From: Branchinecta lynchi
Taxonomy: Eukaryota; Arthropoda; Branchiopoda; Anostraca; Branchinectidae
Length of the DNA stretch: 64,000 bases
Assembly (NCBI GenBank): GCA_023053575.1
Contig: JAKZAP010000020.1
Span: forward strand, 14,875,998 to 14,939,997
Direction: 5' to 3'
Below, one piece after another: positions 3,831-62,465 of this stretch; within the stretch, counting starts at the first letter, position 1, and each line of letters starts with the position of its first letter. The position numbers were made by a program, and so were the translations under genes. The notes under the pieces were generated by a model. The model was not told the DNA's origin. It did no database searches and saw only the letters and a program-made list of their open reading frames with translations.

Positions 3831-4660
3831 CTGGTCGCAGACAAAAGGAATGATCTGTGATATCATCGATAGTCCTTACTTTTATTTTGGATCCCAAAAA
3901 GAATATCTAATCATAAATATTTCGAAAATTCTGCCTGCAGCACTTTTCGTAATATTCTCTATTTTGTGGAAGGGCGCGTCATTTGACGGGGGTTTTAAGC
4001 CGGTTTTAGGATTGAGATTTCGAAACATTAAATGCTATACTTAGGATGGTAATTAAATTTGCCAGGAAAAAGCAAAAAAAAATTCTCCTGCGGCGCTCAC
4101 TTCATGTTATCATAGGTAGTATATTGACTAGATTACAGTTGCTGCTGCTGCCGGAGCGTCGCTCCATCCGTTTTCTGGAACTTCTTAGAGTCTTGGTATT
4201 TCATCAACGGTAAATGATAGAATTTGTAAGAGAAGCAGTTAAATTTTAGCCCACAAAAACAAAAGATAATGGAATTCGAAAATTTTCGCCTGCGGCGCTC
4301 GGTTTAATTTTCTATTGGCTATAATAGATAGTAGCTGTTACTGCAATCATGCCCGGCAACATATTCTCCATGTGGGCTTCGCCAAAACGCCGCCTAATAG
4401 TTGGCTTATCGTCGTTCATGCTGCCTTTTATTGTTACTCTTCCTACGTCATCGTTTCTGTTCCATAATTTAAAGCTCGAATTCTTAGTTCTAGGATTCGG
4501 TAAAATTTTTGAAAGATTCGGTAGAATTTTGGCTCTGCAACCCCCCCCCCCCCCCCCCCCCTCCCCACCGAAAATGCACTTGCGACGCCCCTGCACACTG
4601 GTATGGTATAAACATACGTACAATCCGTCCGTAGCAGAAACTGTAGAAAAGCGTCCTTTC
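3831..4660. other. Non-coding, hAT-like remnants and poly-C tract
   Basis: The words GCCTGCGGCGCTC and TTCTCTATTT recur here (3930-4310) and in the interior of the hAT-like element at 41590-41770, so this may be a diverged relative. A 20-nt C run near 4541 is followed by GCGACGCCCCTG (to 4593), which read on the minus strand is CAGGGGCGTCGC, a hAT-type terminus. No matching left end or target duplication was found. Confidence 0.35.
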
Positions 4661-12717: not shown

Positions 12718-13761
12718 TTTTTGGGATCCCAAAACTTAAGTGAAGGGATACCTATGACATCGCAAAAGTTGTTCGTCTGTCCGTCCGTCTGTCAGCACGA
12801 TAACTCTCAAAGGGAATGAGATATTTTGATGAAACTTGGTGTAAAGATTCTTTGGGTCAAGTGCCGTACATTTCGGGGTGGGGGAGGGGGTTCAAATTAA
12901 GAGGCAAACAAAATATTTAAAAAAAGCTAATGTGATAGTCGATTATGGGGTAAGAAGAGATGCTGAAAACGAATATGCAAAACATTTTCTCGTCCGACAA
13001 GTAACCCGGCAAAAACCGGAAAGTTGGTTAAAAGTAAAAGTTTCATTTGAAGATGATTAAATGTTCGATTTAGGGGTAAGAAGACATGCTGAGCACGATG
13101 GTGGAAACCATTTCCTCGCCCGACAAGTAGTTCGTCCGAAATCCGGCAAAACCGGAAAGTTGGTTAAAATTATAAGTTTTATTTTATGTTGATTAGAAGA
13201 GAAATTTAGGAGTAACAAGGCATGCTGAAGACTTATATGAAAAGCATTTTCTATCCGGACACATAGTTCGCCCGGAATCCCGGCCAAGACCGGAAAATTC
13301 GTTAAAAGTAAAAGTTTTATCTGAAGTTGATTAGATGACAGATTTAGGGCTAAGGAGACGCTGAGTCTGTATATGACATTCACTTTTCAGCTGGACATAT
13401 AATTCGTCCGGAATCCGGTTGAAACCGGAAATTTTTTTGTAACTAAACTTTTACTTCAAGTTGATTAGATGTCCTTTATAGGGATGGGATAAGAAGATAC
13501 GCTGAATTCGTTTCTGAGTTTTCTTTTTCTGCTGGACAAGTAGTTCGCTCGGAATCTGGCCGAAACCGGAAATTTGGCAGAAGTAAAGCAGGAAGTTTCA
13601 GTCAGTATTGTCAAAATAGATATGCCTGATAGAGGTATATCTGAGCTTGGTTTTCTCAGATGATTTAGCCTGGCGAAGACTGGATCTGGCGAAGACAAAA
13701 CCCAGTTGTCTGGATCAAATACTAGATTTTTGGGATCACATCGAAACCTTAGGTCTTGTTT
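12718..13761 (-). mobile_element. Family B Helentron-like element B1
   Basis: Read on the minus strand it starts at 13761 with AAACAAGACCTAAGGTTTCG and a GATCCCAAAA-like word. It then has several 130-137-bp monomers marked by TTTCCGG...CCGGATTCCGG and AACTACTTGTCC, then CCAAGTTTCATC, a TCCGTC/TGTC microsatellite (12777-12793) and the TTTTGGGATCCCAAAA palindrome at 12720-12737. Complete by these marks; non-coding. Confidence 0.75.
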
Positions 13762-17087: not shown

Positions 17088-17889
17088 TCTCAAAGGGAAC
17101 GAGATATGATGAAAATTGGTGTGAGAACTCTTTGGGTCAAGCTAGTAGATGGGCTCTGTAGCCCTAGATTTAGGGGTGGGGGTTCGAATTAAGGGGCAAA
17201 CAAAATATTTTTAAACAGCTAATGAGATAGTCGATTATGGAGTAAGAAGACATGCTGAACACGTATATGCAAAAAGACTTCTCGTCCGAGAAGTAGTTCG
17301 CCCGAAATCCGGCAAAAACCGGAAAGTCGGTTAAAAGTAAAAGTTTCATTTGAAGTTGATTAAATATTCGATTACGGGGTAAGAAGACAAGCTGAACACG
17401 ATGATGAAAACCATTTTCTTGCCGGACGAGTAGTTTGTCCGGAATCCGTCAAAAACCGGAAAGTTGGTTAAAAGTAAAAAAAAAATGATTTTGAAGCTGA
17501 TTAATGTTCGATTTAGGGTTAAATAGACATGCTGAAGACTTATGTGAAAAGCATTTTCTACCTGGACAACCAATTCGCCCCAAATCCGGCCCAAACCAGA
17601 AAATTTGTAAAAAGTAATAAGTTTTATTCAAGTTGATTAGATACGGTACGCTGAATTTGATTCTGAATTTTCTTTCTTTGCTGGAGAAGTAGTTCGCTTG
17701 GAATTCGGCCGAAACCAGAAAATTTGGTAGAAGTAAAGCAGGAAGTTTCAGTCAGTATCGTAAAAATAGATATGGCTTACAGAGGTATATCTGAACTTGG
17801 TTTTCCCTAATGATTAGCCTGGCGAAGACGGGATATGGCGAATCAAATATTAGAGTTTTGAGATCACATCGAAACCTTTGGTCTTGTTG
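17088..17889 (-). mobile_element. Family B element B2, lacking 3' end
   Basis: The minus-strand 5' end is at about 17888 (AACAAGACCAAAGGTTTCGA) and is followed by about five core monomers with CCGGATTCCGG-like and AACTACTTCTCC words. The CCAAGTTTCATC-like block is present (17100-17125), but the microsatellite and GGGATCCC palindrome are absent, so the 3' end is truncated. Confidence 0.7.
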
Positions 17890-21033: not shown

Positions 21034-22416
21034 TTTTATGGCACTTGCCCTTCGGCCAAGTGCCATATAGCGATCGCAATTTCTGTCCGTCCGTCGGTCT
21101 GTCGGTCTGTCGGTCTGTCGGTCTGTCGGTCTGTCGGTCTGTCCAGGTTTTGCTAGTTCGGGCACTTCCACATAAGCTAGAACGATAAAACTTGGCAGGC
21201 GTATCGGGGACCCCAAATGATTAAGCTGGAAATAGTCACTTCCCCGATCCGAGCACCGTGGGGGGAGTGGAGGGAGGGGGAATCCGGAATCTTGAGGTAT
21301 TTTTAACTTTTGAACGAGTGATCGGATCTCGATGAAACTTGATAATTGGAACGACCTCATGCCTCAGACGACCCACTTAAAATCCGGACCGGATCCGGTG
21401 ACTTTTGGGGGGAGCTGGAGGGGGCAACCGGAAATCTTGGGAAACGGTATGAGTGGAGGGATCGAGATGAAACTTGGTGGGAAGACACCTAGCAAACACT
21501 AGATACATCATTGACATAACCAAGCCGATTCGGGTACTGTGGGGGGAGTGGAGGGAGGGGGAATCCGGAATCTTGAGGTATTTATAACTTTTGAACGGGT
21601 GATCGGATCTCGATGGAACTTGATATTTGGAAAGACCTCATACCTCAGACGACCCACTTATAATCTGGACCGGATCCGGTGACTTTTGGGGGGAGCTGGA
21701 GGAGGCAACCGGAAATTTTGGGAAATGCTATGAGTGGAGGGGTCGAGATGAAACTTGGTGGAAAGACACCTAGCAAACACTAGATACATCATTGACATGA
21801 CCGAACCGATTCGGGCACTGTCGGGGGAGTGGAGGGAGGGGGAATCCGGAATCTTGAGGTATTTATAACTTGTGAACGGGTGACCGGATCTCGATGAAAC
21901 TTGATATTTGGAACGACCTCATGCCTCAGACGACCCACTTAAAACTCGGACCGGATCCGGTGACTTTTGGGGGGAGTTGGAGGGGGGCAACCGGAAATCT
22001 TGGGAACCGCTATGAGTGGAGGGATCGAGATAAAACTTGGTGGGAAGACACCTAGCAAACACTAGATACATCATTGACATGACCGAGCCGATTCGGTCAC
22101 TGTCGGGGGAGTGGAGGGAGGGGGAATCCGGAATCTTGAGGTATTTATAACTTTTGAACGGGTGACCGGATCTCGATGAAACTTGATATTTGGAAAGACC
22201 TCATGCCTCAGACGACCCACTTAAAATCCGGACCGGATCCGGTGACTTTTGGGCGGAGCTGGAGGGGAGAACCGGAAATATTGGAAAACGCTAAGAGTGG
22301 ATGGATCGAGATGAAACTTGGTGGGAAGACACCTAGCAAACACTAGATATATCATTGACATAACCGAGCCGTGCTTACTCGTAACAAGTGCCATATGAGC
22401 TCGTAGCTCTTGTTTT
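21034..22416 (-). mobile_element. Family A element A2 with four ~281-bp monomers
   Basis: On the minus strand it begins AAAACAAGAGCTACGAGCTC then ATATGGCACTTG (22416 down) and ends with a TCGGTCTG microsatellite (21090-21140) and the hairpin ATGGCACTTG...CAAGTGCCAT (21039-21066). The core is four tandem units of 280-282 bp (marker ACTTTTGAACGGGTGATCGG at about 21307, 21589, 21869, 22151). The near-identical element A11 at 61396 has three units. Non-coding; repeated short frames here are repeat translations. Confidence 0.85.
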
Positions 22417-31554: not shown

Positions 31555-32008
31555 TGACGCAATCTTTCAGAGTTGGTGCCCATCTAATTCCATCTTCGCC
31601 GCTGCGCATATCAGAGGAAAAACTGCAACAGGCGTGCTGAACCGCTCTGCTGTACGTCACATGTGACGTCACAATCGTAGACAACCAATCGCTTTTACTT
31701 TCGAAATTTCTTCTCCGGGGCTTCACTGCGATATAGCTGTTAGTGGAGGTAACGAATTGTGATGTTCCGCGTAGCTTCTACTCTCCGCTCGTTTGCGTCG
31801 GGCAGGGTAAACGGGGTTAACTCCGCCTGCATACATGCAGCCAGTCCCAAGCCTGGATAAAGGAGGAGGGTGAGCAGAAACTTTGCAAGTTTCTCTCAGA
31901 AGCGTCCGCGCTGAAAACATCTTGCTATTGAAACATCCCCGAAATAGTTTGCTTGTTTTCCGAAGCTTTGTTGAATTTTTCGAAGCTCTCTGATAAATAA
32001 CGACGAAC
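31555..32008 (+). promoter_or_regulatory. Probable 5' UTR/promoter region of the RTE-like element
   Basis: CAGTCCCAAGCCTGGATAAA just upstream of the ORF is a phrase common in 5' leaders of this type of invertebrate element. The more distal part (31555-31820) is homologous to 57460-57690, inside a short TIR element, with shared words GCGATATAGCT, CCGCTCGTTTGC and TCGGGCAG. Whether it drives transcription is not known. The true 5' end was not located. Confidence 0.45.
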
Positions 32009-35000
32009 ATGGACCATCCCCGGACACGATTTCAAACGAAAACGAAAATGGACCGCCCCCGGACACGATTTATGAAAGAAAACGTACCCCTGAAAATCGG
32101 ATTTTGGAACGTCAGAACCATGTCACAACTCTCAAAAACTGAACAGGTGTTAAAAGAAATGTCACGCTACCGGCTTGATTTGTTGGCAATCTCAGAATCG
32201 CGATGGACAGGCAATGGCTTAGAGAGACTGAATGCCCTCGGCCAAACAATCATCTATAGTGGAGCCGAAAAAAGAAGGGAAGCAGGCGTAGCTCTTCTGC
32301 TATCCAAGCAAGCGTCCAATGCGCTTCTGACATGGAAACCGGTAAACGAGAGAATTCTTTGGGCTCGCTTTGTAGGGGCCCACGCCAAACTCTCTGTGGT
32401 AGTCTGCTATGCCCCAACCAACGAAGCAGACGACAGCACCAAGGAAGAATTCTACAACACTCTCCAGGCCGTAGCCAAAGACATCCCACGTCACGACGTT
32501 ACCTGCTTCGTCGGTGATTTCAACGCAAAAGTCGGGTCCGACAGGTCTTACTGTCCAGAAGTTCTGGGCCCGTATGGACTCAGTGACCTAAACGAAAATG
32601 GTGCTCTGCTTGTGGATTTTGCGCTGACGAACGACCTGATTGTAGGAGGGACCCAGTTTCCTCACAAGCGGATTCATATGCACACGTGGAACTACCCGGA
32701 TGGTAAAACCCACAACCAAATAGACCATTTCCTTATAAGCCGGAAGTTCAGATCAAGCCTAAGCGATGTCAGGACTTTCAAAGGAGCCGACGTATACAGT
32801 GACCATGCACTTGTGGTAGCAAAAGTGGCCTTGAAGTTGAAGTCGAAGCCTCGCAAGACCGAAAATCAACGGCCTTACAACTCGGAGAAGCTGTCTGAAA
32901 TCCCGACAAAAGCCGAATTTCGCCTAGGCCTCAGAAACAGGTTCGAAGCTCTCGATCTCACCCTAGGTGAGACAGGAGAGTCGCTGTGGACCTCTATTAA
33001 GGTCACTTTCGAACGCACGGCCTCCGAAGTACTCGGTCGAAAACCTTGTGCGAAAGATCAGTGGATCTCCCCCCGGACTTGGGTTCTCTTCGAGGAACGT
33101 CGTCAACTAAAACAGGATCTTCTGTCAAAAGGCACCGAAACCTCCGACATCACGAAGAACCACCTGTACCAGGCCAAGGACAAGGAGGTGAAAAAAAGCG
33201 CAAGGTCAGATAGGCGGACCCACACAGACAACAAAGCCCAATTGGCTGAAAAGGCTGCAAAGAGGGGCGACTCCAGGACGGTGTATAGAGTCACAAACAA
33301 AATAATTGGCAAAAAGAAGAACTCCAACAGCGCCATCAAGGACGAACAGGGCAATTTGGTGTCCGAACCTGAAGCTGTCGCCGAAGTCTGGGTACAGCAC
33401 TTCGAAAGAATCCTGAATCGACCCAGCCCTGCTGATCCCCCTGCTATACCCGAAACTCCATTCCTAACCCTACAAATAAGCGAAGACCCCCCATCAGCTG
33501 AAGAGGTCAAAGCAGCATCGCAAAAACTGAAGAATGGAAAAGCGACAGGAGACGATCTCATATCCGCCGAGATGATAAAGACTTCGTTGACCGACTGCAT
33601 GGGTATTTGGCTTCTTCTTTTCGCAACAATATGGACGACGGCAAGAGTACCAGTGGACTGGACGAAGAGCACCCTCATCAAACTCTTCAAAAAGGGTGAT
33701 GCCATGAAATGCGACAACTACAGAGGCATAAGTCTGATGTCCATTCCGGGAAAACTCTTCGCTCATGTCATACTGAGACGCATCCAAACAGCGATAGATG
33801 AGCACCTACGAGAAGAACAGCATGGTTTCCGACCCAAAAGGTCATGTGCTGACCTAGTATACGTCCTGCGCATGATCATAGAGGAGTCCAACGAATGGAA
33901 CCATAAGATCTACATGGCTTTCATCGACTTCGAGAAAGCTTTCGACTCCATAGACCGCAATACGTTATGGAAGATCCTCGGTTTCTACGGAATCCCGCCG
34001 AAACTTGTGGCGCTCATCATGGCCCTATACGAGGACACGGAGTGCTGCGTGCGACTAGAAGACGGCAACACAAGATACTTTCGCATAATGTCCGGAGTCA
34101 AGCAAGTGTGTGTTCTTTCCCCATTCCTCTTCGTTCTTGTCATGGACTTCATCCTACGGGACTGCACTGGCTACGGAATCGAGTTTTCCAACAACCGACG
34201 CCTCGCTGACCTTGATTTCGCCGATGACGTTGGACTCCTGGAATCCAGTAAGACAAGGCTACAGGAGTTGATGAACACAATCGAAGAGAAAGCCAGCCAG
34301 TTGGGTCTCCGGATTAACTCCGACAAAACGAAGAGCATGGCAACCAGCGACTCCCCTTTAAATCTGAGATGTGCGGGAAAGGACATCGAGCAAGTCCTGG
34401 AATTCAGATACTTAGGAAGCACCGTCGAAAAGGACGGCTCAAACGCCAGAGAAATTCAACTTCGCATTGGCCAAGCAAGCGGAGCCTTCAACCGCTTGAG
34501 ACCCGTCTGGAGATCCAGGAAATACTCCACAAAGCTGAAGCTGCGCCTGCTGAACAGTAATGTCCTGTCCATTATGCTGTGTCACAGTGAATGTTGGAAG
34601 CTCAACATGCAGCAGGAGAAGAGGATTCTTGCCTTCGAGACGAATTGTCTCCGGAGAATCCTCAACATAACTTGGCAGCAGCGAGTATCGAACCAGGAGG
34701 TACGCCGTCTCACTGGTCAGCCGCTGATAACAGACGTTATCCGAAAAAGAAGATGGCGATACTTGGGCCACGTCCTTCGCATGGACGAATCCAGGTTGCC
34801 AAACAACATCTTCCATTGGCAACCAAAAGGAAGACGTCGAAGGGGACGACCGAGAAATACGATCCGTCGCACCTACCAGAGGGACCTTGCAAACGTCCAC
34901 GCAAGTCTGCAACCTGAGTGGGAAGATGTCCTGGCGGCAGCCGACCAGAGGGAAGACTGGCGCCTATTCGTGGATGCCCTGGGTGCCTCTGGTGGCACAG

Positions 35001-35017
35001 GAGGATCTAAGGTCTAA
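32009..35017 (+). CDS. RTE-like retrotransposon ORF2: endonuclease and reverse transcriptase
   Basis: A single 1002-codon frame. An apurinic-type endonuclease fills about residues 28-275, with SESRW (Glu about 63), CYAPTN, GDFNAKVG (about 168), NQIDH (about 236) and YSDH (about 263), all expected catalytic positions. The reverse transcriptase follows: GFRPKRSC (about 606), FIDFEKAFDSID (about 637), GVKQVCVLSP (about 696) and catalytic FADD (about 736). The end holds a basic GRRRRGRPRNT stretch. The usual QGC of the fingers/palm motif is QVC here, a one-base change (GGG to GTG) that may harm activity. The start ATG at 32009 is the first of three in-frame ATGs (also 32048 and 32072); the conserved domain needs only the last. 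The ORF is antisense to the host gene, in its intron 1. Confidence 0.9.
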   Translation: MDHPRTRFQTKTKMDRPRTRFMKENVPLKIGFWNVRTMSQLSKTEQVLKEMSRYRLDLLAISESRWTGNGLERLNALGQTIIYSGAEKRREAGVALLLSKQASNALLTWKPVNERILWARFVGAHAKLSVVVCYAPTNEADDSTKEEFYNTLQAVAKDIPRHDVTCFVGDFNAKVGSDRSYCPEVLGPYGLSDLNENGALLVDFALTNDLIVGGTQFPHKRIHMHTWNYPDGKTHNQIDHFLISRKFRSSLSDVRTFKGADVYSDHALVVAKVALKLKSKPRKTENQRPYNSEKLSEIPTKAEFRLGLRNRFEALDLTLGETGESLWTSIKVTFERTASEVLGRKPCAKDQWISPRTWVLFEERRQLKQDLLSKGTETSDITKNHLYQAKDKEVKKSARSDRRTHTDNKAQLAEKAAKRGDSRTVYRVTNKIIGKKKNSNSAIKDEQGNLVSEPEAVAEVWVQHFERILNRPSPADPPAIPETPFLTLQISEDPPSAEEVKAASQKLKNGKATGDDLISAEMIKTSLTDCMGIWLLLFATIWTTARVPVDWTKSTLIKLFKKGDAMKCDNYRGISLMSIPGKLFAHVILRRIQTAIDEHLREEQHGFRPKRSCADLVYVLRMIIEESNEWNHKIYMAFIDFEKAFDSIDRNTLWKILGFYGIPPKLVALIMALYEDTECCVRLEDGNTRYFRIMSGVKQVCVLSPFLFVLVMDFILRDCTGYGIEFSNNRRLADLDFADDVGLLESSKTRLQELMNTIEEKASQLGLRINSDKTKSMATSDSPLNLRCAGKDIEQVLEFRYLGSTVEKDGSNAREIQLRIGQASGAFNRLRPVWRSRKYSTKLKLRLLNSNVLSIMLCHSECWKLNMQQEKRILAFETNCLRRILNITWQQRVSNQEVRRLTGQPLITDVIRKRRWRYLGHVLRMDESRLPNNIFHWQPKGRRRRGRPRNTIRRTYQRDLANVHASLQPEWEDVLAAADQREDWRLFVDALGASGGTGGSKV

Positions 35018-38809: not shown

Positions 38810-39643
38810 TAAGTCATATCTCTTTTGACGAAAACTTCCTGCCACTTCTGCCAATTTCCCGGTTTCGGCCGACCTCCGGAACTACTTGTCCGGCAAAAAA
38901 AGAAAGCTAAAAAATGTCTTTTTTCCCCAATAATGAACATCTAATCAACTTCAAATAAAAATTTAACTTATAATAAATTTTCAACTCCAGCCGGATTCCG
39001 ATCGAACTATATGTCTGGGTTAAAAATGATTGTCACACACGGATTCAGCATCTTTTCTTACCCAGGATTAAATCGGATATCTAATGAACTACAAATAAAA
39101 CTTTAACTTTTAACAGTTTTCCGGTTATGGCCGGATTCCGGGCGAACTACATGTCCGGGTAGAAAATTTTTTCACATAAGTGTTCAGCATGTCTTCTTGC
39201 CCTAAATAGAACATTTAATCCACTCCAAGTAAAACTTTTAATTTTGACAAACTTTCCGGTTTGGGCCGGATTCCGGGCAAACTACTTGTCCGTCGAGAAA
39301 ATTGTTTTCACCATCGTGTTCAGCATGCCTTCCTACCTATAAATCGAACATGTCTTCTTACCCCATAATCGACTATCACATAAGCTGTTTCAAAATATTT
39401 TATTTGCCCCTTAATTTGAACCCCTTCCCCCACCCCTATATCTAGGGCTACAAAGCCCATCTACGAGCTTGACTTGTCCGACGACCCAACGAATCCTCAC
39501 ACCAAGTTTCATCAAAATATCTCGTTCCCTTCGAGAGTTATCATGCTTACAGACGGACGGACAGACGGACAACTTTTGCGATGTCATAGGTATCCCTCCA
39601 CTTACGTTCAGGGGTGGCCCGAAGGGGGGGGGGCAGTAGCAGA

Positions 39644-42436: not shown

Positions 42437-42575
42437 CGCGTGCCGCGGTGCCGTGTCGGTGCCGAGCCGGTGCCGAGCCGGTGCCGTGCCGGTGCCGTGC
42501 CGGTGCCGTGCCGGTGCCGTGCCGGTGCCGTGCCGGTGCCGTGCCGGTCCCGTGCCGGTGCCGTGCCGGTGCCGC
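42437..42575 (+). repeat. 12-bp GTGCCGTGCCGG tandem array, left
   Basis: About eleven units of GTGCCGTGCCGG with a few GAGCC and GTCCC variants. All three plus frames are open because the unit length is a multiple of three and lacks stops. Confidence 0.9.
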
Positions 42576-44609: not shown

Positions 44610-44772
44610 GCGCGCCGGTGCCGTGCCGGTGCCGTGCGGTGCCGAGCCGGTGCCGCGGTGTTGCGCCGTTGCCGTGCCTTTGCCGTGCCGGTGCCGTGGT
44701 GCCGTGCCGGTGCCGCGGTGCCGTGCCGGTGCCGTGCCGGTGCCGCGCTGCCGTGTCGGTGCCGTGTCGAGG
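44610..44772 (+). repeat. GTGCCGTGCCGG-type array, right
   Basis: More degenerate units of the 12-mer (GCCGGTGCCGTGCC, GTTGCGCC, GTGCCGCGGTGCC) next to the right end of the 42397-44805 element. The unit runs in the same direction as the left array although the outer ends are inverted. Confidence 0.85.
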
Positions 44773-45310: not shown

Positions 45311-45693
45311 CAGTTGGCTTATTTGCTCTTGCTTATTCATACACACTGTTGACATGACTCTAGTTCTCTAGAGTAATGACGCATCGATTTAAACCGCCTA
45401 AATATCATGTAAGATCAAATATTAACAAATTAAATATTACTCAAACTACATTCTTCTGCAATGATGCCGTTCAAGTATTACTAAATACTATCTCAGTCTA
45501 ATTTCTTTACTCCCAGTTACCCCTCTATCCCTCTTACCTTCCAACGCTACCAACTTTGGCAACTTGCAAGAAAGATCTGATCTTATTTGTGACGAGATTT
45601 GTGAAAAGCAAATTCCCGTTCAAAATGCCTGACAATCTGGAAAGAATCAACCCAGTAAGCTTACTACACGCCCATTCACAACGGGTTTTTAGC

Positions 45694-46235
45694 GGGTCGC
45701 TGTCACTACCGCAACACGTCAGTTGGCATAAACGTCAGTTCGCCTAAACGAAAAATCCGACAGTACGTCAACACGTCAGTTCCCCTACACGTCAGTTCAA
45801 CTACACGTCAGTTCGTCTACACGTCAGTTCACCTAAACGTCAGTTGCACTACACGTCAGTTCGCCTACCGTCAGTTGACATAAACGTCAGTTGACATAAA
45901 CGTCAGTTCAGTCACCGTCAGTTCACCTATTTTAGAAATCCGTCACTTCGTCAACACGTCAGTTCAGCTACACGTCAGTTCCCCTACACGTCAGTTCGCT
46001 TACCGTCAGTTGACATAAACGTCAGTTGACATAAACGTCAGTTGACATAAACGTCACTTCGCATACAAAATCCGTCACCACCCCCAGAGATTCAGACCCA
46101 CCTATTAGTTCGAAGTCGACTGGGTCACCGAAAGCAATTAAGCAGAGGGAATAAAACCCAGGGGCTTAATAAAAAGAAGCCGACATTTGCGCATATTGAT
46201 GAGGGTAAAATTAGTTAAGAATCACCGGGAGCTTG
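45694..46235 (+). repeat. Left terminal repeat of the foldback (CGTCAGTT array)
   Basis: About eighteen copies of ACGTCAGTT separated by 7-9 variable bases (GACATAA, CGCCTAC, CCCCTAC), to about 46075. It is followed by a 150-bp unique part ending near CACCGGGAGCTT. Confidence 0.85.
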
Positions 46236-46447
46236 CAATCAGATGCGGCAGACGGGGCTAGTCAAACGAAAACTGAAAAATATGAGGTGAACGTATAATT
46301 AAACACAAATAAGGGCTTAACAACCATCGCAAGGTGAAGGACCAAAATGTGCCAGTGATTCTCAATCTTTTCCGAAAGGGTACCGGAAACAGTGAGGGAC
46401 GAACTCTTTTCTCTTGGCTCTTGGCCAGTGCTTCCTCTATTGTCTTC

Positions 46448-47487
46448 AAACAAGACCAAAGGTTTCGACGGGATCCCACAAATTTCATATCTGATCCAGA
46501 CAGTTGGATCTTGTAGATAAATATCCGGTCTTCGCCAAACAATTTTAACTGGAATTTAGAAACAGAGAGACGTGGATTCAGCTTGCGTGTTTACTCCTAT
46601 AAGTCGGATATACTTTGACGAAATTGATCAAAACTTCCAGCTGCCTTACTGCTCACATATTTTCCGGTTTCTGCCTGGTTCTTGGCGAGCTTCTTGTCCG
46701 TTATGTACTATATACTACCTTACAATACACTACAGATAAAACTTTAACTTTTAACGAATCTTCAGGTTTTGGCCGGAGCCCGAACTATTTGGCCGGCGTG
46801 GAATATTGACACATAGGTTCAGCATGCTTCCTTACCACTACACCCATCCTCTAATCAACTTCAGATAAAAACGTTTACTTTTTCAAAACTTTACTTTTTC
46901 AGCCGGATTCCGGGAGAATATGTCCGGGTAGAAAATAATTGCCATATGCGGATGCAGCATGTCTTCTTAAGCCTGAATCGAACATCTAATCAAGCTCAAA
47001 TACAACTTTTATGTTATACAAATTTTCCGGTTAGGGCCGGATCCCAGGTTAGGTTGTCTACTTGTCCGGCGAAAAAAAAAATTGTTTAATACGTGTTCAG
47101 TGTGTCTTCTTACCCCTAAATTGAACCTCTAATTTACTTCAGATCAAACATTTCTTTTTCAGAAATTTTCCTGTTTTTGCCGGATTCACGGTGAACTACT
47201 TTTCCGGCGAGAAAATAATTTTCATATTCGGATTCAGCATTTCTCCTTATCTCTGAATCGATTATCTTATTAGATTCTAAAATATTTTTTCGTCCTTTAA
47301 TTTGACCCCCTCCCGACCCCTAAATATAGGGCTACAGACCCCATCTTCGAAATTGACCTGTACTTTGACCCAAAGATTCTTTATGCCAAATTTGAACGAA
47401 TATATCTCAACCCCTACGAGAGTTATCTTGCTAACAGAGGAGAGACGGCCAACTCTTACGAAGTCATAGGTGCGGGATCCCAAAAAG
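46448..47487 (+). mobile_element. Family B element B7
   Basis: The 5' end is AAACAAGACCAAAGGTTTCG, GGGATCCC. Six or so core monomers with GCCGGATTCCGGG follow. The microsatellite is decayed (ACAGAGGAGAGACGG) and the end reads TGCGGGATCCCAAAAA. The CCAAGTTTCATC block is reduced to GCCAAATTTGAACG. An older copy by decay. Confidence 0.75.
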
Positions 47488-47763
47488 TAGTAGCCCTCCA
47501 AAATAGTAGATAAAACTAGAATTTTCTGTTAATTGATAGTAATGCAATCACCAGTCCCATTCACAAGTTAGTTCTTAATGAGCCTTTTACTTTCAAGCTC
47601 CCCCTTCAGAATAAATTAAAAAAGTAAAAAAAATATATTTCTGTCTGCTAAAATAAAAAGTTTCTAATATAGAGCCACATTATCCACATTAGAGCCTAAC
47701 ATCAATAAATTTTCTCCCCAGAAATAGCTATTATTCCAATAGTTCCGAAAAATTCATAAAAAC
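47488..47763. other. Foldback interior, no gene
   Basis: AT-rich sequence between B7 and A6 with no motif supported. Confidence 0.3.
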
Positions 47764-49177
47764 AAAACAAGAGCTGTAAGCTCATATGGCACTTGCAGGG
47801 GTCAAGATATATTTTTCATCAAAAGAACTTTGCGGTTAAGATGCGCGCTGTAAGGGGGCTAGAACTTCATTTGTAAGCAAAACCCTTGAGGCAAAAATGA
47901 CACTTGGCTGATGGGGACCATGAACATACATATTTTGCTTAAAAGTATTTTTCTTACTTTGCGGTCAAGGTTGATACGGTAATAGTCGGATTTGGGAAGT
48001 AGCTATTTATAAGCAAATCTTTTTGAATATCTAATATTCCAGCGAAGTTTCGTCATCCTAGCTCATCTGGAAGTACCTTAACTCGCGATCACCGGAATCC
48101 CAGACCCCCCCCCCCTCCAACTCCACCAACAATACCCGGAGCCAATCCGGTTCTGTAAATGATGCCCAGAGCATCTGTTTGTTATTCTACAATGTTCGAT
48201 CCCGATCACACCAGTCTAAGCGGGTCTAGTATTCCCCCCCCCCCCTCAACAGTTGTCGGATCCGATCCGGAAATGACGAAGATCGCCACAGGGATATGTC
48301 CTCTGTTCATTTATTAAATTTCACTCGAATCCGATCGCCCGTTCCAACGTTGCGCATGACTCAATATTCAGGATTTCCCTCCCTCCACTCCCCCCTAAGA
48401 TTATCATATCGAAGATTTTTTTTTATATTTCCAAGTCAGTTTGAACGGGTCCCTGATATGCCTGCCAAGTTACGTCATGAAAATCCCCAGAAACTGGAAT
48501 TCCGGGAAACCCCCTACACCCCCACCCCCGAAGTGTCCGGATCCAGTCCAACTGTGTAAAAGATTAACCTGGAGCAGATGTTTGTTCTTCCCAGTAAGTT
48601 TCACTCCGATCCCTCCATTCTAACCGTTTCTCGAGATTTCCGGTCTCCCCCCCAACTCCCCCCTAGCTATCGAATATGGTCAAGACCTTAAACGGGATAT
48701 CAGACATATAGAATCTATTCAGTTACTAAGTTTCATTCCAATCCGATTACCCGTTCGGAAGTTACACACTGCTCAATTTCCCGGATTCCCCCGCCCTCCC
48801 CCCCCCCCCGAGATGGTCGGATCGGAAAACTGATTATTTCTAAGTTTGTTTGGTCGGGTCCCTGATATGCCTGCCAAGTTTCATGGTCCTAGCACATCTG
48901 GAAGTACCCGAACTCGAAAAAGTGTGACAAACTGCCCTCAATTTTCAAGTTCGCACAGCCCTCCACTCCCTCAATATGGCTGGATTGAGAAACTGATTAT
49001 TTCCAGGTTACTTTGGTTGGGTTGCTGATATGCCTGCCAAGTTTCATTGTCCTAGTACATCGGGAAGTACCCTAATTCGAAAAAATGGACAAAAAAACCG
49101 GACCGACCGACAGACCGACGGACGGAATTATGATCGGTATATGGCACTTGAGCCAGAGGCTGCAAGTGCCATGAAAA
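47764..49177 (+). mobile_element. Family A element A6
   Basis: The 5' end is AAAACAAGAGCTGTAAGCTC then ATATGGCACTTG. Poly-C-containing core units with CCAAGTTTCAT follow, then ACCGACCGACAGACCGACGG (49102-49121) and the hairpin GGCACTTGAGCC...GCAAGTGCC (49143-49170). Confidence 0.8.
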
Positions 49178-49222
49178 AAAAATATTCCTTGAGCCCAAGC
49201 TGACTTTGAAAAATATATTCAA

Positions 49223-49360
49223 ATAATGCATACAACGGGTACGTCTGCTACGATTCATTGGCAGGGATGAACATTGACAGCCTGACGAGGACCCTTGCCA
49301 AGAAGGGCCAAATATCGCTGCCAAAGCATCGTATCTGACGTACCCGCTGTATGCATTATT
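49223..49360. repeat. Foldback D2, near-palindromic 138 bp
   Basis: The arms begin AATAATGCATACAACGGGTA and end with the complement (TGTATGCATTATT). The right arm holds the same word as D1 (GAGGACCCTTGCCAAGAAGG). Non-coding. Confidence 0.6.
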
Positions 49361-49716
49361 AACAAAAAAAAATGGAAAATAAATATTTTTCTACTTAAAT
49401 ACAGACAGTTTTAATACAGAGTGAACCAGACTGTTTTAAAACTTTATGCCGCAGTCAAAAATTTCGAAAATCAGACTCCTTCATGGTAAAAATCGACCAG
49501 ATTACTTTCCAAACAACAGTGTGTCGCAGACAAAATTTTTTAAGATGTATGTGTTTTCTGTAAAAACCCTAAGTCGCTTACTTACCCGATCCGACCATCG
49601 TGGGGAAGTAGTCAACTCATCGTGGATTTCAAAAGTTTATATTCCAAAAACATATTTTGTGTGAACTGATGACGCAATCATTAGTCTCATAGGCCTAGCT
49701 ATCTCTCAGCGATGAA
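49361..49716. other. Foldback interior, no gene
   Basis: Short frames without recognisable content. The last 40 bp (CTAGCTATCTCTCAGCG) match the sequence just upstream of A1 (5678-5696). Confidence 0.35.
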
Positions 49717-50789
49717 AAACAAGACCAAAGGTTTCGATGGGATCCCAAAAATTCAATATCTGATCCAGACAACTGGGTCTTGTCTTAGCCAAATCCAGTC
49801 ATCGCCAGACTCCTTGAACATTCTTACAATTAAAATTCAGAAACAGATTAAGGCCAAATAGCTAATCATCTGAGAAAAACTTCCTACCACTACCGCCAAT
49901 TTCCCGATTTCGGCCAAACTCCAGAACTAATTGTCCGGCGAAAAAAAAAGAAAGCTCAAAAATGAACTCTGGGTATCTTCTTTCCCCAATAATGAACATC
50001 TAGTCAACTTCAAATAAAAATTTAGCTTATAACACATTTTCCGAGTCCAGCCGGATTCCGGTTGAACTATATGTCCGGGTAAAATATGATTGTCACACAC
50101 GGATTCAGCATCTCTTCTTACCCCTTGTTATCTAATCAACTAGAAATAAAACTTTAACTTCTACCAATTTTCCGGTTTCGGCCGGATTCCGGGCGAATTA
50201 CATGTCTGGATAGAAAATTGTTTTCACATAAGTGTTCAGCATGTCTTCTTGCCCTAAATCGAACATCTAATCAACTTCAACTAAAACTTTTAATTTTAAC
50301 AAACTTTCCGGTTTGGGCCGGATTCCGGTCGAAATACTTGTCCGTCGAGAAAATGGTTTTCACCACCGTGTTCAGCGTGTCTTCCTACCCCTAAATCGAA
50401 CATCTAATCAGCTTACAATAAAACTTTTACTTTTAACAAACTTTCGGATTTGGGCCGGATTCCGGGCGAACTACTTGTTCGATAACAAAATGATTTTCAC
50501 CATCGTGTTCAGCATGTCTTCTTACCCCATAATCGACTATCACATTAGCTGTTTCAAAATATTTTGTTTGCCCCTTAATTTGAAACCCCTCCCCCACCCC
50601 TAAATGTAGGGCTACAAAGCCCATCTTCAAACTTGACTTGTCCGACGACCCAACGAATCCTCACACTAAGTTTCATCAAAATATCTCATTCCCTTCTAGA
50701 GTTATCGTGCTACAGACGAACGGACAGACAGACGGACAACTTTTGCGATGTCATAGGTATCCCTCCACGTACGTTTTGGGATCCCAAAA
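49717..50789 (+). mobile_element. Family B element B8
   Basis: It starts AAACAAGACCAAAGGTTTCG with GGGATCCCAAAA. Core monomers of 131-137 bp have CCGGATTCC at 50051, 50182, 50318 and 50455. CTAAGTTTCATC is at 50668, then an ACGGACAGACAGACGG microsatellite, then ACGTTTTGGGATCCCAAAA ending 50789. A good reference copy. Confidence 0.85.
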
Positions 50790-52015
50790 GTAAGAGCTGG
50801 AAGCTCAAATGGCACTTGCAAGGCTGGGTCAGATGAAAGTGATGGTCAGAAGTATTGTTTCCACTTTCTGGTTAAGATTCGCACTATAAGGGTGCTGAAA
50901 ATTAATTTCTAAGAAAAACCCTTGAGGCAAAAAGGATCATGTACATGGCGATCGTGAAAAAGTAAATTTTGCTTAAAAGTGTTTTTTGTATTTTGCGGTT
51001 AAGATGAGTTCTTTAAGGAATGGTGATCTCTAACCCAATGATGTCAAGTTTCTAATACCCCAGCAAAGTTTCATGGTCCTAGCACATCTGGAAGTACCTT
51101 AACTCACGATCATTCCGGACACCCCCCCCCCTTCCCCCTCGAATCCGGTTCGATTCTATCAGTAACGTACCTAGGACTTGTGCCTGTACTTCTCACCAAG
51201 TTTCATCGTGATCGCTCCACTCTATGCGCGTCACAATATTTCCGGTTCTCCCCTCCGACCCCCCCTCCCAGTTGATCGGATCTAGTCCGGACTTGAAACG
51301 GGACATCTGAGACGTGGGATCTTTCAAGATATCAAGTTTCATTAAGATCTGATAACCCGTTCGAAAGTTATGCATGCCACTAATTCCCAGATTCCGCCGT
51401 CTCCCCCTCCCCCACGACTGTCGGATGGGGGAGTGACTGTTTCCAAGTTAATCTGGTCAGGTCCCTGATATGCCTACCAAGTTTTATCGTCCTAGTCCAC
51501 CTAGAAGTGCATTAACTACGGATCGCCGGAATTCCGGAACCCCACTCCAGCTCCCCCCATAGTGTCCGAATCCGATCCAGTTCTGTCAGTTGTTTATCTA
51601 GAGCTTGTTCTTGTTCTTGCCACTAAGTTTCATCCGGATCGCTCCACTCTAAGAGTTTCACACGATTTCCAGTTCCCCCCCTCCAACTCCCCCCCCCCCC
51701 GATTCATCGGATCCGGTCCGGACTTGATATGAGATATCTGAGACACAAGGTCTTTCCAGATATCAAGTTTCATTAAGATCCGATCACCTCTTCGAAAGTT
51801 ATGCATGCCCCTGTTTTCTGGATTCCGCCACCTCCCCCTCCCTCCACGATGGTCGGATCGGTCAAGTGACTATTTCCAAGCTAGTTTGGTCGGGTCCCTA
51901 ATATGCTTGCCAAGTTTCATCGTCCTAGAACTTCTGGAAGTACCCTACTCGAGAACAGTGGACCGACCGACCAAAAAGTGATCGGTATATGGCGGAGCTG
52001 CAAGTGCCATAAAAA
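50790..52015 (+). mobile_element. Family A element A7, abutting B8
   Basis: The 5' end GTAAGAGCTGGAAGCTCAAA then TGGCACTTGCAAGG follows the last base of B8 directly. Poly-C core monomers run to 51940. The 3' hairpin is partly decayed (GGCGGAGCTGCAAGTGCC), ending CATAAAAA near 52015. Confidence 0.75.
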
Positions 52016-52214
52016 TCTAATTGTGTTTTAGTTGCCCAGCAATTAGTATTTATATCTTGAAGTTGTAAGCTAGCTCTCTTCAAAATACATTTATCAGAAC
52101 CGACTGTCCTTATTCGCCTCCCTAACCCCAGCTTAGCGAAGCTATCAATTACAATGAGAGTTTTCCCTGGTGTCTACCAACCGTATTCTTTCTTTCGTAA
52201 CGTGAACCAAAACT

Positions 52215-52794
52215 GTCAGAATTGACAAGAGCCTCCTGGCTTAATTTTTGCCCTCATTAAAAGTGAATTGTCGGCTTCTCTTATTAATCCACTGGGCGAG
52301 CTTCCGTAACTATCCCGTCGACAACAACATGTGAGCAAACTTCCGGAAAATGTGTGTGAACTGACGTTTATGCCAACTGACGTTTATACCAACTGACGTT
52401 TATGCCAACTGACGTTTATGTCAACTGACGTTTATACCAACTGACGCTTATGTGAAATGACGGTAGCCGAACTGACGGTAGGCGAACTGACGTGTAGCTG
52501 AACTGTCGGATTTTAGGATTAGGTGAACTGACGTGTAGGTCTACTGACGTTTATGTCAACTGACAGTAGGCGAACTGACGTTTGGTCAACTGACGTGTAG
52601 GGCAACTGACGTGTTGGCCAACTGACGTGTTGGTCAACTGACGTGTTGATGAAGTGACGTGTTGATCAACTGACGGATTTTTGGGGGTCAACTGACGTGT
52701 AGGCGAACTGTCGAAAAATGTTGGCGTACTGACGGAATTCTGTGGCGAACTGACGTTTATGTCAACTGACGTGTTGCGGTACTGACGGGACCCC
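52215..52794 (-). repeat. Right terminal repeat of the foldback (AACTGACG array)
   Basis: About twenty AACTGACG words from 52368 to 52785, the complement of the left array. The inner part (52215-52330) matches 46140-46235 in inverted orientation. Confidence 0.85.
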
Positions 52795-52802
52795 TTTTTA
52801 GC

Positions 52803-53572: not shown

Positions 53573-54605
53573 AAACAAGACCAACGGTTTCGATGGGATC
53601 CCAAAAATTCAATATTTGATCCAGACAATTGGGTCTTGTCTTCGCCAGTCTCCTTGAACGTTTTTACTATTAAAATTCAGAAACAGATTAAGGCCAAATA
53701 GCTAATCATCTGAGAAAACCAAGTTTAGATATGGAGTCAGCATGTGTCAGCTACTTGTCCGGCAAAAAAATAAAAGCTCAAAAACGAAATCAGCGTATTT
53801 TCTTTCCCCAATACTGAACATCTAATCAACTTCAAATAAAAATTTAACTTATAACAAATTTTCCGGCTCCAGCCGGATTCCGGTCGAAATTTATGTCCGG
53901 GTAAAAAATGATTGTCATACACGGATTCAGCATCTCTTGTTATCCCTAAATCGGATATCTAATCAACTACAAATAATACTTTAAGTTTCAATAATTTTAC
54001 GGTTTCGGCCGGATTCCGGGCGAACTACTTGTCTGGGTAGAAATTTGTTTTCACAGAAGTGTTCAGCATGTTTTCTCCAATACATTGAATATCTAATCAA
54101 CTGCAAATAAAAGTTTTACTTTTAACAAACTTTCCGGTTTTGGCCGGCTTCCAGGCGAACTACGTATCCGGCAAGAAAATGGTTTTCACCGTCGACTTCA
54201 GCATGTTTTTCTACTCCCAAATCAACTTCAAATAAAACTATTATTTTTAACAGACTTTCCGGTTTTCACCACTTTCAGACTTCCGTACTTGTCCGATGAC
54301 AAAATGGTTTTCACCATCGTGTTCAGCATGTCTTCTTACCCCATAATCGACTATCAAATTATCTGTTTAAAAATCTTTCATTTGCCCCTTAATTTAAACC
54401 CTCTCTCCCACCCCTAAATGTAAGGCTACAGAGCCCATCTACGAACTTGACCTTACTCTTGACCGAAAGAATTCTCACACCAAGTTTCATCAAAATTTCT
54501 CATTCCCTTCGAGAATTATAGTGCGCACAGACGGACGGACGGACAGACGGACAACTTTTGCGATGTCACAGGTATCCCTCCACTTACGTTTTGGGATCCC
54601 AAAAA
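53573..54605 (+). mobile_element. Family B element B9
   Basis: AAACAAGACCAACGGTTTCG at the 5' end, core monomers with GCCGGATTCCGG, CCAAGTTTCATC at 54480, ACGGACGGACGGACAGACGG at 54531, and TTTTGGGATCCCAAAAA at the end. Complete. Confidence 0.85.
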
Positions 54606-58848: not shown

Positions 58849-60093
58849 GAGCTGTAATCTCGTATGGCACTTGCAAGAATACGTCGTAGCTAATGATAAA
58901 AGCTAAGATTTGTCCCGGTCCCACCACTCTATGCTTGTTCCGAGATTTCCGATCCCCATCCAATCCCCCCCCCCCGAGTTATTGGATCCCGTCCGGACAT
59001 GAAACGGCAAATCTGCGACACGAGCTCTTTCCAACTGTCAAGTTTTGTTTGTGTCTGATGCCCCCTTGGAAAGTTACGCTTGACTCAAGATCCCGGAATT
59101 CCCATCCCTCCGCCCCCCCCCCTCCCGATGGTCGGATCGGGGAAATGACTTTTCTTAAGTCAATCTTGTCGGGTCCCTGATAAGTCTGCCAAGTTCCATC
59201 AAGCACATCTGGAAGTACCTTAACCCGTGATAACCGGAAATTCGGGACCCAGCCTCCACCCCCCCCCCCACAGTGCACGGATCCGATCCGGTTATGTCAA
59301 CAAAGTATCAAGGATATGTGCTTGTTCTCCCCGCCAAGTTTCATCCCGATCCTTCCACTCTAAGCGTGTCACGATATTTCCGGTTTCCCACTCTAACTCC
59401 CCCATGGCTGCCGGATCCGGTCCGGAAGTACAATGGGACATGTGAGGCTCGTCTTCTTCCCACATATCAAGTTTCATTCAGATCCGATCACCCGTTCGAA
59501 AGTTACGCATGCCTCAATATTCCCGATTCCCCTTCACTCCACTCCCCCACGATGGTCAAATCGGGAAAGTGACTATTTCCAAGTCAGTTTTGTTCGCTTC
59601 CCTGGTAAGCCTGCCAAGTTCATCATCCTAGGACATCTGGAAGTACCTTAACCCGTAAAAACCGGAATTCCGGGATCCAGCCTATAACACCACCACCCCC
59701 CACAGTGCCCGGATCCGATCCGGTTATGTCAACGACGTATCAAGGATATGTGCTTGTTTTTTCCACCATGTTTCATCCCGATCCCTCCACTCTAAGCGTG
59801 TCCATGATATTTCCGGTATCCCCCTCCAACTCCCCCCACAGCTGTCGGATCCGGTTCGGACATAAAACAGGACATGCGAGGCATGTTTTCTTCCCATATA
59901 TCAAGTTTCATTCAGATCCGATCACCCCTTCGAAAGTTACACATGCCTCAATATTCCGGATTCCCCCTCCCTCCACTCCCCCCACGGTGGTCAGAGCGGG
60001 GAAGTGACTATTTCCAAGTCAGTTTGGTCGGGTCCCTGATACGCCTGCCAAGTCATGGATATCCCTCCACTTACATTTTGGGATCCCAAAACA
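58849..60093 (+). mobile_element. Family A element A10 with family B 3' end
   Basis: The 5' end AACAAGAGCTGTAATCTCGT then ATGGCACTTG joins the hairpin of A9 directly. A-type core monomers run to GCCTGCCAAG (60051). The sequence then switches to the family B terminal block (GTCATGGATATCCCTCCACT, CATTTTGGGATCCCAAAA) without microsatellite or A hairpin. Confidence 0.75.
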
Positions 60094-61395: not shown

Positions 61396-62465
61396 TTTTT
61401 ATGGCACTTGCCCTTCGGCCAAGTGCCATATAGCGATCGCAATTTCTGTCCGTCCGTCGGTCTGTCGGTCTGTCCGGGTTTTGCTAGTTCGGGCACTTCC
61501 ACATAAGCTAGGACGATACAACTTGGCAGGCGTATCAGGGACCCCAAATGATTAAGTTGGAAAGAGTCACTTCCCCGATCCGAGCACCGTGGGGGGAGTG
61601 GAGGGAGAGGGAATCCGGAATCTTGAGGTATTTTTAACTTTTGAACGGGTGATCGGATCTCGATGGAACTTGATATTTGGAAAGACCTCATGCCTCAGAC
61701 GACCCACTTAAAATCTGGACCGGATCCGGTGACTTTTGGGGGGAGCTGCAGGGGGCAACCGGAAATCTTGGGAAACGCTATGAGTGGAGGGATCGAGATG
61801 AAACTTGGTGGGAAGACACCTAGCAAACACTAGATACATCACTGACATAACCGAGCCGATTCGGGCACTGTCGGGGGAGTGGAGGGAGGGGGAATCCGGA
61901 ATCTTGAGGTATTTATAACTTTTGAACGGGTGATCGGATCTCGATGGAACTTGATATTTGGAAAGACCTCATGCCTCAGACGACCCACTTCAAATCCGGA
62001 CCGGATCCGGTGACTTTTGGGGGGAGCTGGAGGAGGCAACCGGAAATCTTGGGAAACGCTATGAGTGGAGGGGTCGAGATGAAACTTGGTGGGAAGACAC
62101 CTAGCAAACACTAGATACATAATTGACATGACCGAGCCGATTCGGGCACTGTCGGGGGAGTGGAGGGAGGGGGAATCCGGAATCTTGAGGTATTTATAAC
62201 TTTTGAACGGGTGACCGGATCTCGATGAAACTTGATATTTGGAACGACCTCATGCCTCAGACGACCCACTTAAAATCCGGACCGGATCCGGTGACTTTTA
62301 GGGGGAGCTGGAGGGGGCAACCGGAAATCTTGGGAAACGCTGTGAGTGGAGGGATCGAGATGAAACTTGGTGGGAAGACACCTAGCAAACACTAGATATA
62401 TGATTGACATAACGGAGCCGTGCCTACTCGTAACAAGTGCCATATGAGCTCGTAGCTCTTGTTTT
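61396..62465 (-). mobile_element. Family A element A11 with three ~282-bp monomers
   Basis: Nearly identical to A2: hairpin at 61401-61430, TCGGTCTG microsatellite (61455-61470), three units (ACTTTTGAACGGGTGA at about 61637, 61919, 62201), and minus-strand 5' end AAAACAAGAGCTACGAGCTC at 62465. Confidence 0.85.

Follow-up and report, generated by a model that had tools for sequence, protein, structure and literature searches.

The Foldback (FB/NOF) elements of Drosophila have a Mutator-related transposase and 9-bp target-site duplications (TSDs). The TU elements of sea urchins reportedly carry outer tandem units of ~15 bp followed by an inner domain, and they are said to have 8-bp target duplications and modular middles composed of other dispersed repeats. 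Tm1 of root-knot nematodes belongs to the Phantom subclass of the Mutator/Foldback elements; the available part of its report describes long TIRs of 13–15-bp tandem units that vary in number, outer end motifs that are unequal, MITE-like forms, TSDs of mostly 9 bp (8–10), and a MULE-domain transposase with an N-terminal FLYWCH, whose gene shows signs of introns (PMC3169594). Galileo, as far as the accessible parts of two reports go, combines long, internally repetitive TIRs of variable structure with a P-type transposase (PMC3573991, PMC4168063).

The stretch of DNA analyzed here (the window) comprises 64 kb of the Branchinecta lynchi genome and holds a foldback element of 7.1 kb, with long inverted termini of short tandem subrepeats and fixed ends. 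This copy is likely a non-autonomous member of a foldback MULE family that is mobilized in trans, the enzyme responsible probably being of the Mutator type. The family is best read as new, set apart from known systems largely by their descriptions. The features of the element, together with a related empty site for another copy (L023), are as follows.

4268–4412, + strand: related empty site for the L023 copy, 94% across the joined flanks, with a single GCTGTTAC
45686–45693, no strand: left TSD TTTTTAGC
45694–46085, + strand: left arm, with the terminus GGGTCGCTGTCACT followed by mostly 15–16-bp CGTCAGTT units, 18 exact 8-mers
46086–46447, + strand: left inner domain, without a repeat match elsewhere in the window
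46448–47471, no strand: middle block 1, a dispersed repeat with other copies in the window, related to the ~137-bp tandem unit (two BLAST blocks, 46448–46540 and 46729–47471)
47852–49185, no strand: middle block 2, a dispersed repeat in three BLAST blocks, with GGCACTTGC-type ends by eye
49605–50789, no strand: middle block 3, a second block-1-type copy, with a 137-bp tandem array at 49994–50536
51039–52015, no strand: middle block 4, a second block-2-type copy
52016–52358, − strand: right inner domain, common to older copies
52359–52794, − strand: right arm, an array of CGTCAGTT units with 18 exact 8-mers, ending in GACGGGACCCC
52795–52802, no strand: right TSD TTTTTAGC

The span and the flanking 8-bp duplication given in a preliminary description of this DNA are exact, and its termini GGGTC(C/G)C read GGGTCGC on the left and, inwards, GGGGTCCC on the right. 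The two ends are slightly unequal, and identical motifs occur in nearly all copy ends compared. Each arm has 18 exact CGTCAGTT 8-mers, whereas 500 shuffled versions of the left arm that preserved its dinucleotides had at most 3 (mean, 0.14). Outside the element, the window contains a single 8-mer of this type on the two strands together. The subrepeats had been put at 16–19 bp; in fact, the units are mostly 15–16 bp long, with some of 8 or 21–31 bp. Similarly, arms of 540–580 bp are obtained if the weaker inverted similarity between the left and right inner domains is included, but the arrays alone measure ~390 bp on the left and ~436 bp on the right. Arm-to-arm identity inside one element is ~76%.

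In this architecture, the element resembles Tm1 in its long TIRs of short tandem units and in its unequal end motifs and miniature forms, although the unit sequence of Tm1, as given in the available text, is not the present one. The FB likeness, compared by description, lies in the inverted arms built of subrepeats, and that with Galileo, in the accessible accounts, in the long, repetitive TIRs of variable structure. TU, by its description, shares the two-domain inverted repeats, the 8-bp duplications and the modular middle, its host being a sea urchin rather than Branchinecta lynchi.

Other copies, which the preliminary description had proposed to look for, are abundant: the left arm plus inner part gave at least 43 matches in the 576-Mb genome, window included, in a search that scored 40 of 839 candidates. 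Paired ends were present at 17 places among 20 fetched pieces and the window, with an exact 8-bp TSD at 14, a 7/8 match at one, and none at two (L013 and L024); L013 is nested within another copy, of which ~90 bp is missing. At none of the 15 duplicated places did the TSD extend to 9 bp, which differs from the 9 bp of FB and from the mostly 9 bp of Tm1. When five short elements were added, the duplication was exactly 8 bp at 19 of 20 places (filter, ≤1 mismatch). Complete miniatures of 231, 428, 621, 730 and 768 bp each have an exact TSD.

Related empty sites were found as well. In a comparison drawing on the window and the fetched loci, sequence continuing through the junction was matched for 10 of the 20 joined flanks, seven cleanly (L016, 99%; L064, 95.5%; L023, 94%; L020, 85%; L018, 84%; L068, 81%; L014, 79%) and three weakly (L011, 75%; L017, 73%; L040, 70%). 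With its fixed ends, 8-bp TSDs and related empty sites, the element is a real DNA transposon. The arms are minisatellite-like arrays, as would be expected if inverted minisatellites merely surrounded unrelated sequence; the fixed termini and the recurrence of an identical 7.1-kb interior at many places leave such an artifact next to no probability, and the TSDs and related empty sites led us to reject it.

The whole unit and an internally deleted form have spread recently. Fifteen copies have a mean pairwise identity of 97.86%, and the internally deleted copies L014 and L016, which sit at two sites and have different TSDs, share 99.84% identity. Two copies carry insertions: the one in L022 has no frame longer than 108 aa, and the one in L027 has a 761-aa frame that is LINE-like by eye. 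Elsewhere, a LINE ORF in the window has its closest named match in Artemia franciscana (58–65%).

Do the arms also occur on their own? Arrays in both orientations were present in 19 of the 20 fetched pieces, L022 showing a single orientation within its 9.9 kb, and an element with paired ends and duplications exists at many places, which supports the earlier interpretation. Among 40 pieces fetched at right-end 11-mers, 26 (12/20 and 14/20) bore arrays; five of these are complete short elements with exact TSDs, and in the others the far end lies mostly beyond the 1.26-kb piece. L059 has both ends but no TSD, and L039 (extended by 7.1 kb) and L046 (extended by 5.2 kb) have no matching left end; therefore, some arms are solitary or decayed. 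For the same lack of a left end, L039, with a 171-aa frame, and L046 were rejected as autonomous copies. L071 and L072 contain decayed or shortened relatives only.

The middle of the 7.1-kb form consists largely of dispersed repeats riding as cargo. Its longest reading frames reach 112 aa, and the internal transposase that the preliminary description had suggested seeking did not appear: ten ORFs gave no Pfam match over the curated cut-off. The window likewise had no match in Rfam or tRNA scans.

Could the enzyme be encoded by older copies? The right-end copies L032, L035, L052, L057 and L060 have in common an alternative interior, which in L032 continues into a RING-like exon. Element positions 508–558, in the left inner domain, are retained in L032 and L072 and are followed by CAG/GTAA, a possible splice donor judging from the motif. 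Furthermore, the 236-aa frame of L074 resembles a 3′ exon, because it lacks a methionine and is preceded by AG. At one locus, C15, from which the linkage of MULE and RING with a family arm is known, a MULE domain (33389355, + strand; 1.8e-9, over the cut-off) is followed, ~4 kb downstream on the same strand, by a RING exon within a 224-aa frame and then by a right arm 97.8% identical to that of the window over 369 bp. The MULE match lies in an open frame of only 68 aa. The left end of C15 was absent among 58 matches of the left inner domain (40 of 153 candidates scored) and the 43 left-arm matches. This arrangement, which ties a MULE domain to the RING exon and a right arm of the family, supports the Mutator side of the analogy first drawn with Foldback. 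The accompanying analogy with the P-related Galileo gained no support from the domains searched.

Among the matches located in the genome, a MULE domain followed within 5 kb by a RING exon, in the same strand and order, was found in four pairs versus 0.004 expected, and the left inner domain followed within 8 kb by a RING exon on the same strand in nine pairs at eight places versus 0.008 expected, both expectations assuming a uniform distribution of matches. C21 and C22 resemble copies of one element, so perhaps three of the MULE–RING pairs are independent. The left inner domain and a MULE within 10 kb gave no pairs (32 of the 58 matches used).

A P-type foldback, in which a P/THAP transposase acts in trans on the same arm architecture, would agree with the 8-bp TSDs, which P elements also have, and with the repetitive TIRs of Galileo. 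In contrast to the P-type enzyme of Galileo, the sole transposase domain linked to the family exon and arm, in searches for MULE, FLYWCH and RING domains, is a MULE, and we consider a P-type driver very improbable. The GGG termini do not resemble those of hAT elements, and the four MULE–RING pairs also speak against a hAT or other 8-bp-TSD superfamily as the driver, with the MULE as a chance or nested neighbor. Improbable as that is, the near-uniform exactness of the duplication is tighter than the 8–11 bp given for MULEs in the accessible part of PMC6446971, a range that 8 bp fits at its short end.

Is the RING, then, part of the transposase? Within the preferred reading of a MULE-driven family, the RING exon may instead be captured host-gene cargo unrelated to transposition, a variant compatible with the MULE part. 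RING is frequent among host domains, many of the RING matches are short or interrupted by stops, and MULEs often acquire host gene fragments, according to the available text of PMC6446971. On the other hand, the pairing recurs with diverged RING exons (C11, C22 and C21, 50–57% identical), which have frames of 236–269 aa and no stops in the match, and we regard cargo as a serious but rather unlikely account. A search among proteins of ~123–392 aa with the 85-residue RING tail gave 37 candidates, none at 1e-6. The accessible part of PMC6446971 places a RING ORF beside the transposase in the most complete Ghost MULE, but there it is a separate ORF of 420 bp and no TIRs were found; Spectre shares the 8-bp TSDs but has 74-bp TIRs. 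The Tm1 text, as available, does not contain the word RING (PMC3169594). As for the N-terminal FLYWCH that marks Phantom, five of 19 FLYWCH matches pair with other MULE matches and none with the four RING-linked MULEs, and no FLYWCH–RING pair was found within 10 kb, a search that a diverged or split FLYWCH could escape.

We propose that a transposase supplied in trans, by the C15 MULE gene or a sister copy, would recognize the CGTCAGTT-array ends, the arrays providing multiple putative binding sites. The whole 7.1-kb unit would be cut out, presumably by cut-and-paste excision, and reinserted through an 8-bp staggered cut. The MULE and RING exons may form one spliced gene, separate genes being conceivable too. 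More tentatively, this transposase gene may end in a spliced exon encoding a linker rich in Ser, Thr and Ala, with a C3HC4 RING at the C terminus, its product mobilizing composite repeat cargo between minisatellite arms. If fused, the transposase would have a putative ubiquitin-ligase domain built in; RAG1, which carries a RING, offers a parallel.

These results add a foldback family that is young and for which a transposase is likely. For the comparable family Tetris, the available part of the report gives no autonomous copy found (PMC4079207). They also indicate that several kilobases of foreign repeats can travel between subrepeat arms. The copies are clean material on how unequal tandem arms persist, with ~76% identity within an element and 98% between copies. 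Should the RING belong to the transposase, it would become directly testable whether ubiquitination plays a role in such DNA transposition.

The foldback element at window positions 45694–52794 is bordered on the left and right alike by TTTTTAGC, and both of its ends are arrays of repeat units led by CGTCAGTT; most units are 15 or 16 bp long, and the two arrays are mutually inverted. Exact 8-mers number 18 in each arm, left and right equally, and the left-arm count in 500 dinucleotide shuffles reached a maximum of 3. About 62% of the element consists of matches to repeats elsewhere in the same window, all between 46448 and 52015; they belong to two repeat types and form two sets that run roughly parallel. 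Since this middle matches dispersed window repeats, we conclude that the element transports foreign repeats as cargo.

Features of the window and one fetched piece
45694–52794: foldback element, begins GGGTCGCTGTCACT, finishes ACTGACGGGACCCC
46448–52015, 13005–13348, 17227–17643, 39088–39351, 53816–54359: ~137-bp tandem-unit repeat
21244–22371, 59062–60053, 61575–62420: 281- and 434-bp tandem units
31997–35014: LINE-type frame, 1006 aa, homologues with endonuclease and reverse transcriptase Pfam domains
42446–42574, 44614–44766; L071 (fetched piece) 68–468: CGGTGCCGTGC-type GC-rich minisatellite
4268–4412: related empty site, 94% match to the joined flanks of another copy (L023)

The ~137-bp repeat, with a GGATTCCGG-like core, is abundant across the window and also lies inside the element; judged by eye, the 281- and 434-bp units look to be of the same repeat type as blocks 2 and 4 of the element. 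The closest named relatives of the LINE-type frame are from Artemia franciscana (58–65%), and the frame adjoining the window's CGGTGCCGTGC-type array reappears nearly unchanged in L071.

The preliminary description had taken the paired arms and 8-bp duplication to mark a transposable element, and a genome search bore this out by finding the family elsewhere. Searched against the window's own 576-Mb genome, the left arm together with 215 bp of inner sequence produced at least 43 matches, the window included (40 of 839 candidates scored), a few of them falling at one shared place. For end analysis, ranks 2–20 were taken as 20 pieces (the C4 site was split in two) together with the window. Paired ends were found at 17 places, with an exact 8-bp target-site duplication (TSD) at 14 and one with 7 of 8 bp at another; none of these 15 duplications extends to 9 bp. 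The TSD was absent at the other two, L013 and L024, the former being nested in another family copy of which ~90 bp are gone. At the tolerance used, no simple end pair was found in L022, L025, L026 or L027. The last two (G000:C4:1899000-1916900) hold two family members whose left arms face each other with their outer sides across ~50 bp; one of these members is missing its outermost 77 bp, and another left arm, the third, lies close by.

Fifteen copies showed a mean pairwise identity of 97.86%, with the arms (98.2 and 98.5%) at least as similar as the middle parts (97.4–98.2%). Yet the two arms within one element are about 76% alike, which indicates a recent source for the copies and arms that are not kept alike. 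Furthermore, L014 and L016 share an identical internal deletion and are 99.84% alike at different TSDs, so the deleted form itself has moved. When the two flanks of 20 places were joined over a single TSD and compared with the window and fetched loci, 10 matched other sequence spanning the junction, 7 cleanly (79–99%) and 3 weakly; the L017 match was weak, with an 11-base gap at the junction. The remaining 10 had no junction-spanning match in this set.

The right-end 11-mer GACGGGACCCC occurs 278 times, versus 80 for the reversed control. Among 40 pieces fetched (the first 41 listed places outside the left-arm matches), 26 carry arrays of at least three units (12/20 and 14/20), and the remaining 14 seem to be fortuitous, roughly the number to be expected from the reversed control. 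Of these 26, ten agree with the window element at 91–98% across the whole 1.2 kb and are therefore further copies of the same family. Five of the 26 are complete elements of 231–768 bp with exact TSDs. L059 has both ends and no TSD; L039 and L046 showed no left end after inward extension by 7.1 and 5.2 kb. Target letters show weak bias only. Just outside a shortened family member, L072 (1–1531, minus strand) holds frames that by eye resemble a piggyBac-type transposase.

What could supply the transposition of this family? Five right-end copies (L032, L035, L052, L057 and L060) have the arm and inner domain in common and an interior different from that of the window element; in L032, it leads into a 95-aa RING-like frame. 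A relative in L071 matches RING models below cut-off, and its exon, as a protein query, gave 38 genome matches including itself (56/56 candidates scored), some stop-free in frames of 224, 236, 236 and 269 aa and a dozen containing stops. The 224-aa frame (L073, on C15) combines a Ser/Thr/Ala-rich stretch with a RING over cut-off (zf-C3HC4_3, 2.8e-11), and the 236-aa frame of L074 (C22) is its diverged sister. AG directly precedes both frames, and methionine is scarce (one in L073, none in L074), as would be expected of 3′ exons. The Pfam MULE domain gave 22 genome hits (38/38 candidates scored), 4 of which sit 2.3–4.0 kb upstream of a RING exon on the same strand, where 0.004 would be expected in a uniform genome; the C21 and C22 pairs look like copies of one element. 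On C15, a right arm 97.8% identical to that of the window over 369 bp lies beyond the RING exon, so that MULE, RING and right arm are linked at one locus. The left-inner query gave at least 58 matches (40 of 153 candidates scored); within the first 32, there are 8 places where a RING exon follows downstream. C15 is not one of these places, and in this set no MULE hit follows at a distance of up to 10 kb. The likely supplier is a MULE gene, perhaps with a RING exon.

The family likely belongs to MULE, an assignment resting on one arm. The TSD of Drosophila FB is 9 bp, and by this length the family, with its TSD of 8 bp, does not fit FB proper. FLYWCH is the usual Phantom finger; of 19 genome hits, 5 pair with other MULE hits and none with the four RING-linked ones, so that the family, as far as tested, does not fit Phantom. 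The five pairs (C1, three on C15, C18) are ordinary Phantom-like MULEs of the same genome. Sea urchin TU elements, with a modular middle and 8-bp TSD, are nearest in these two features. Among described cases, Tm1 comes closest in its architecture and in the class of its transposase (PMC3169594). In the portion available of another source, RING-bearing MULEs are few: Ghost has its RING in a separate ORF, and one Phytophthora MULE carries a C3HC4 finger (PMC6446971). A RING fused to the transposase is putative here. What is new is the foldback family as described, with its exact 8-bp TSD and array arms, and the repeated MULE–RING association. A MULE transposase would bind the array ends and excise the element, which would then join a target whose strands are cut 8 bp apart; anything between two suitable arms may then travel along.
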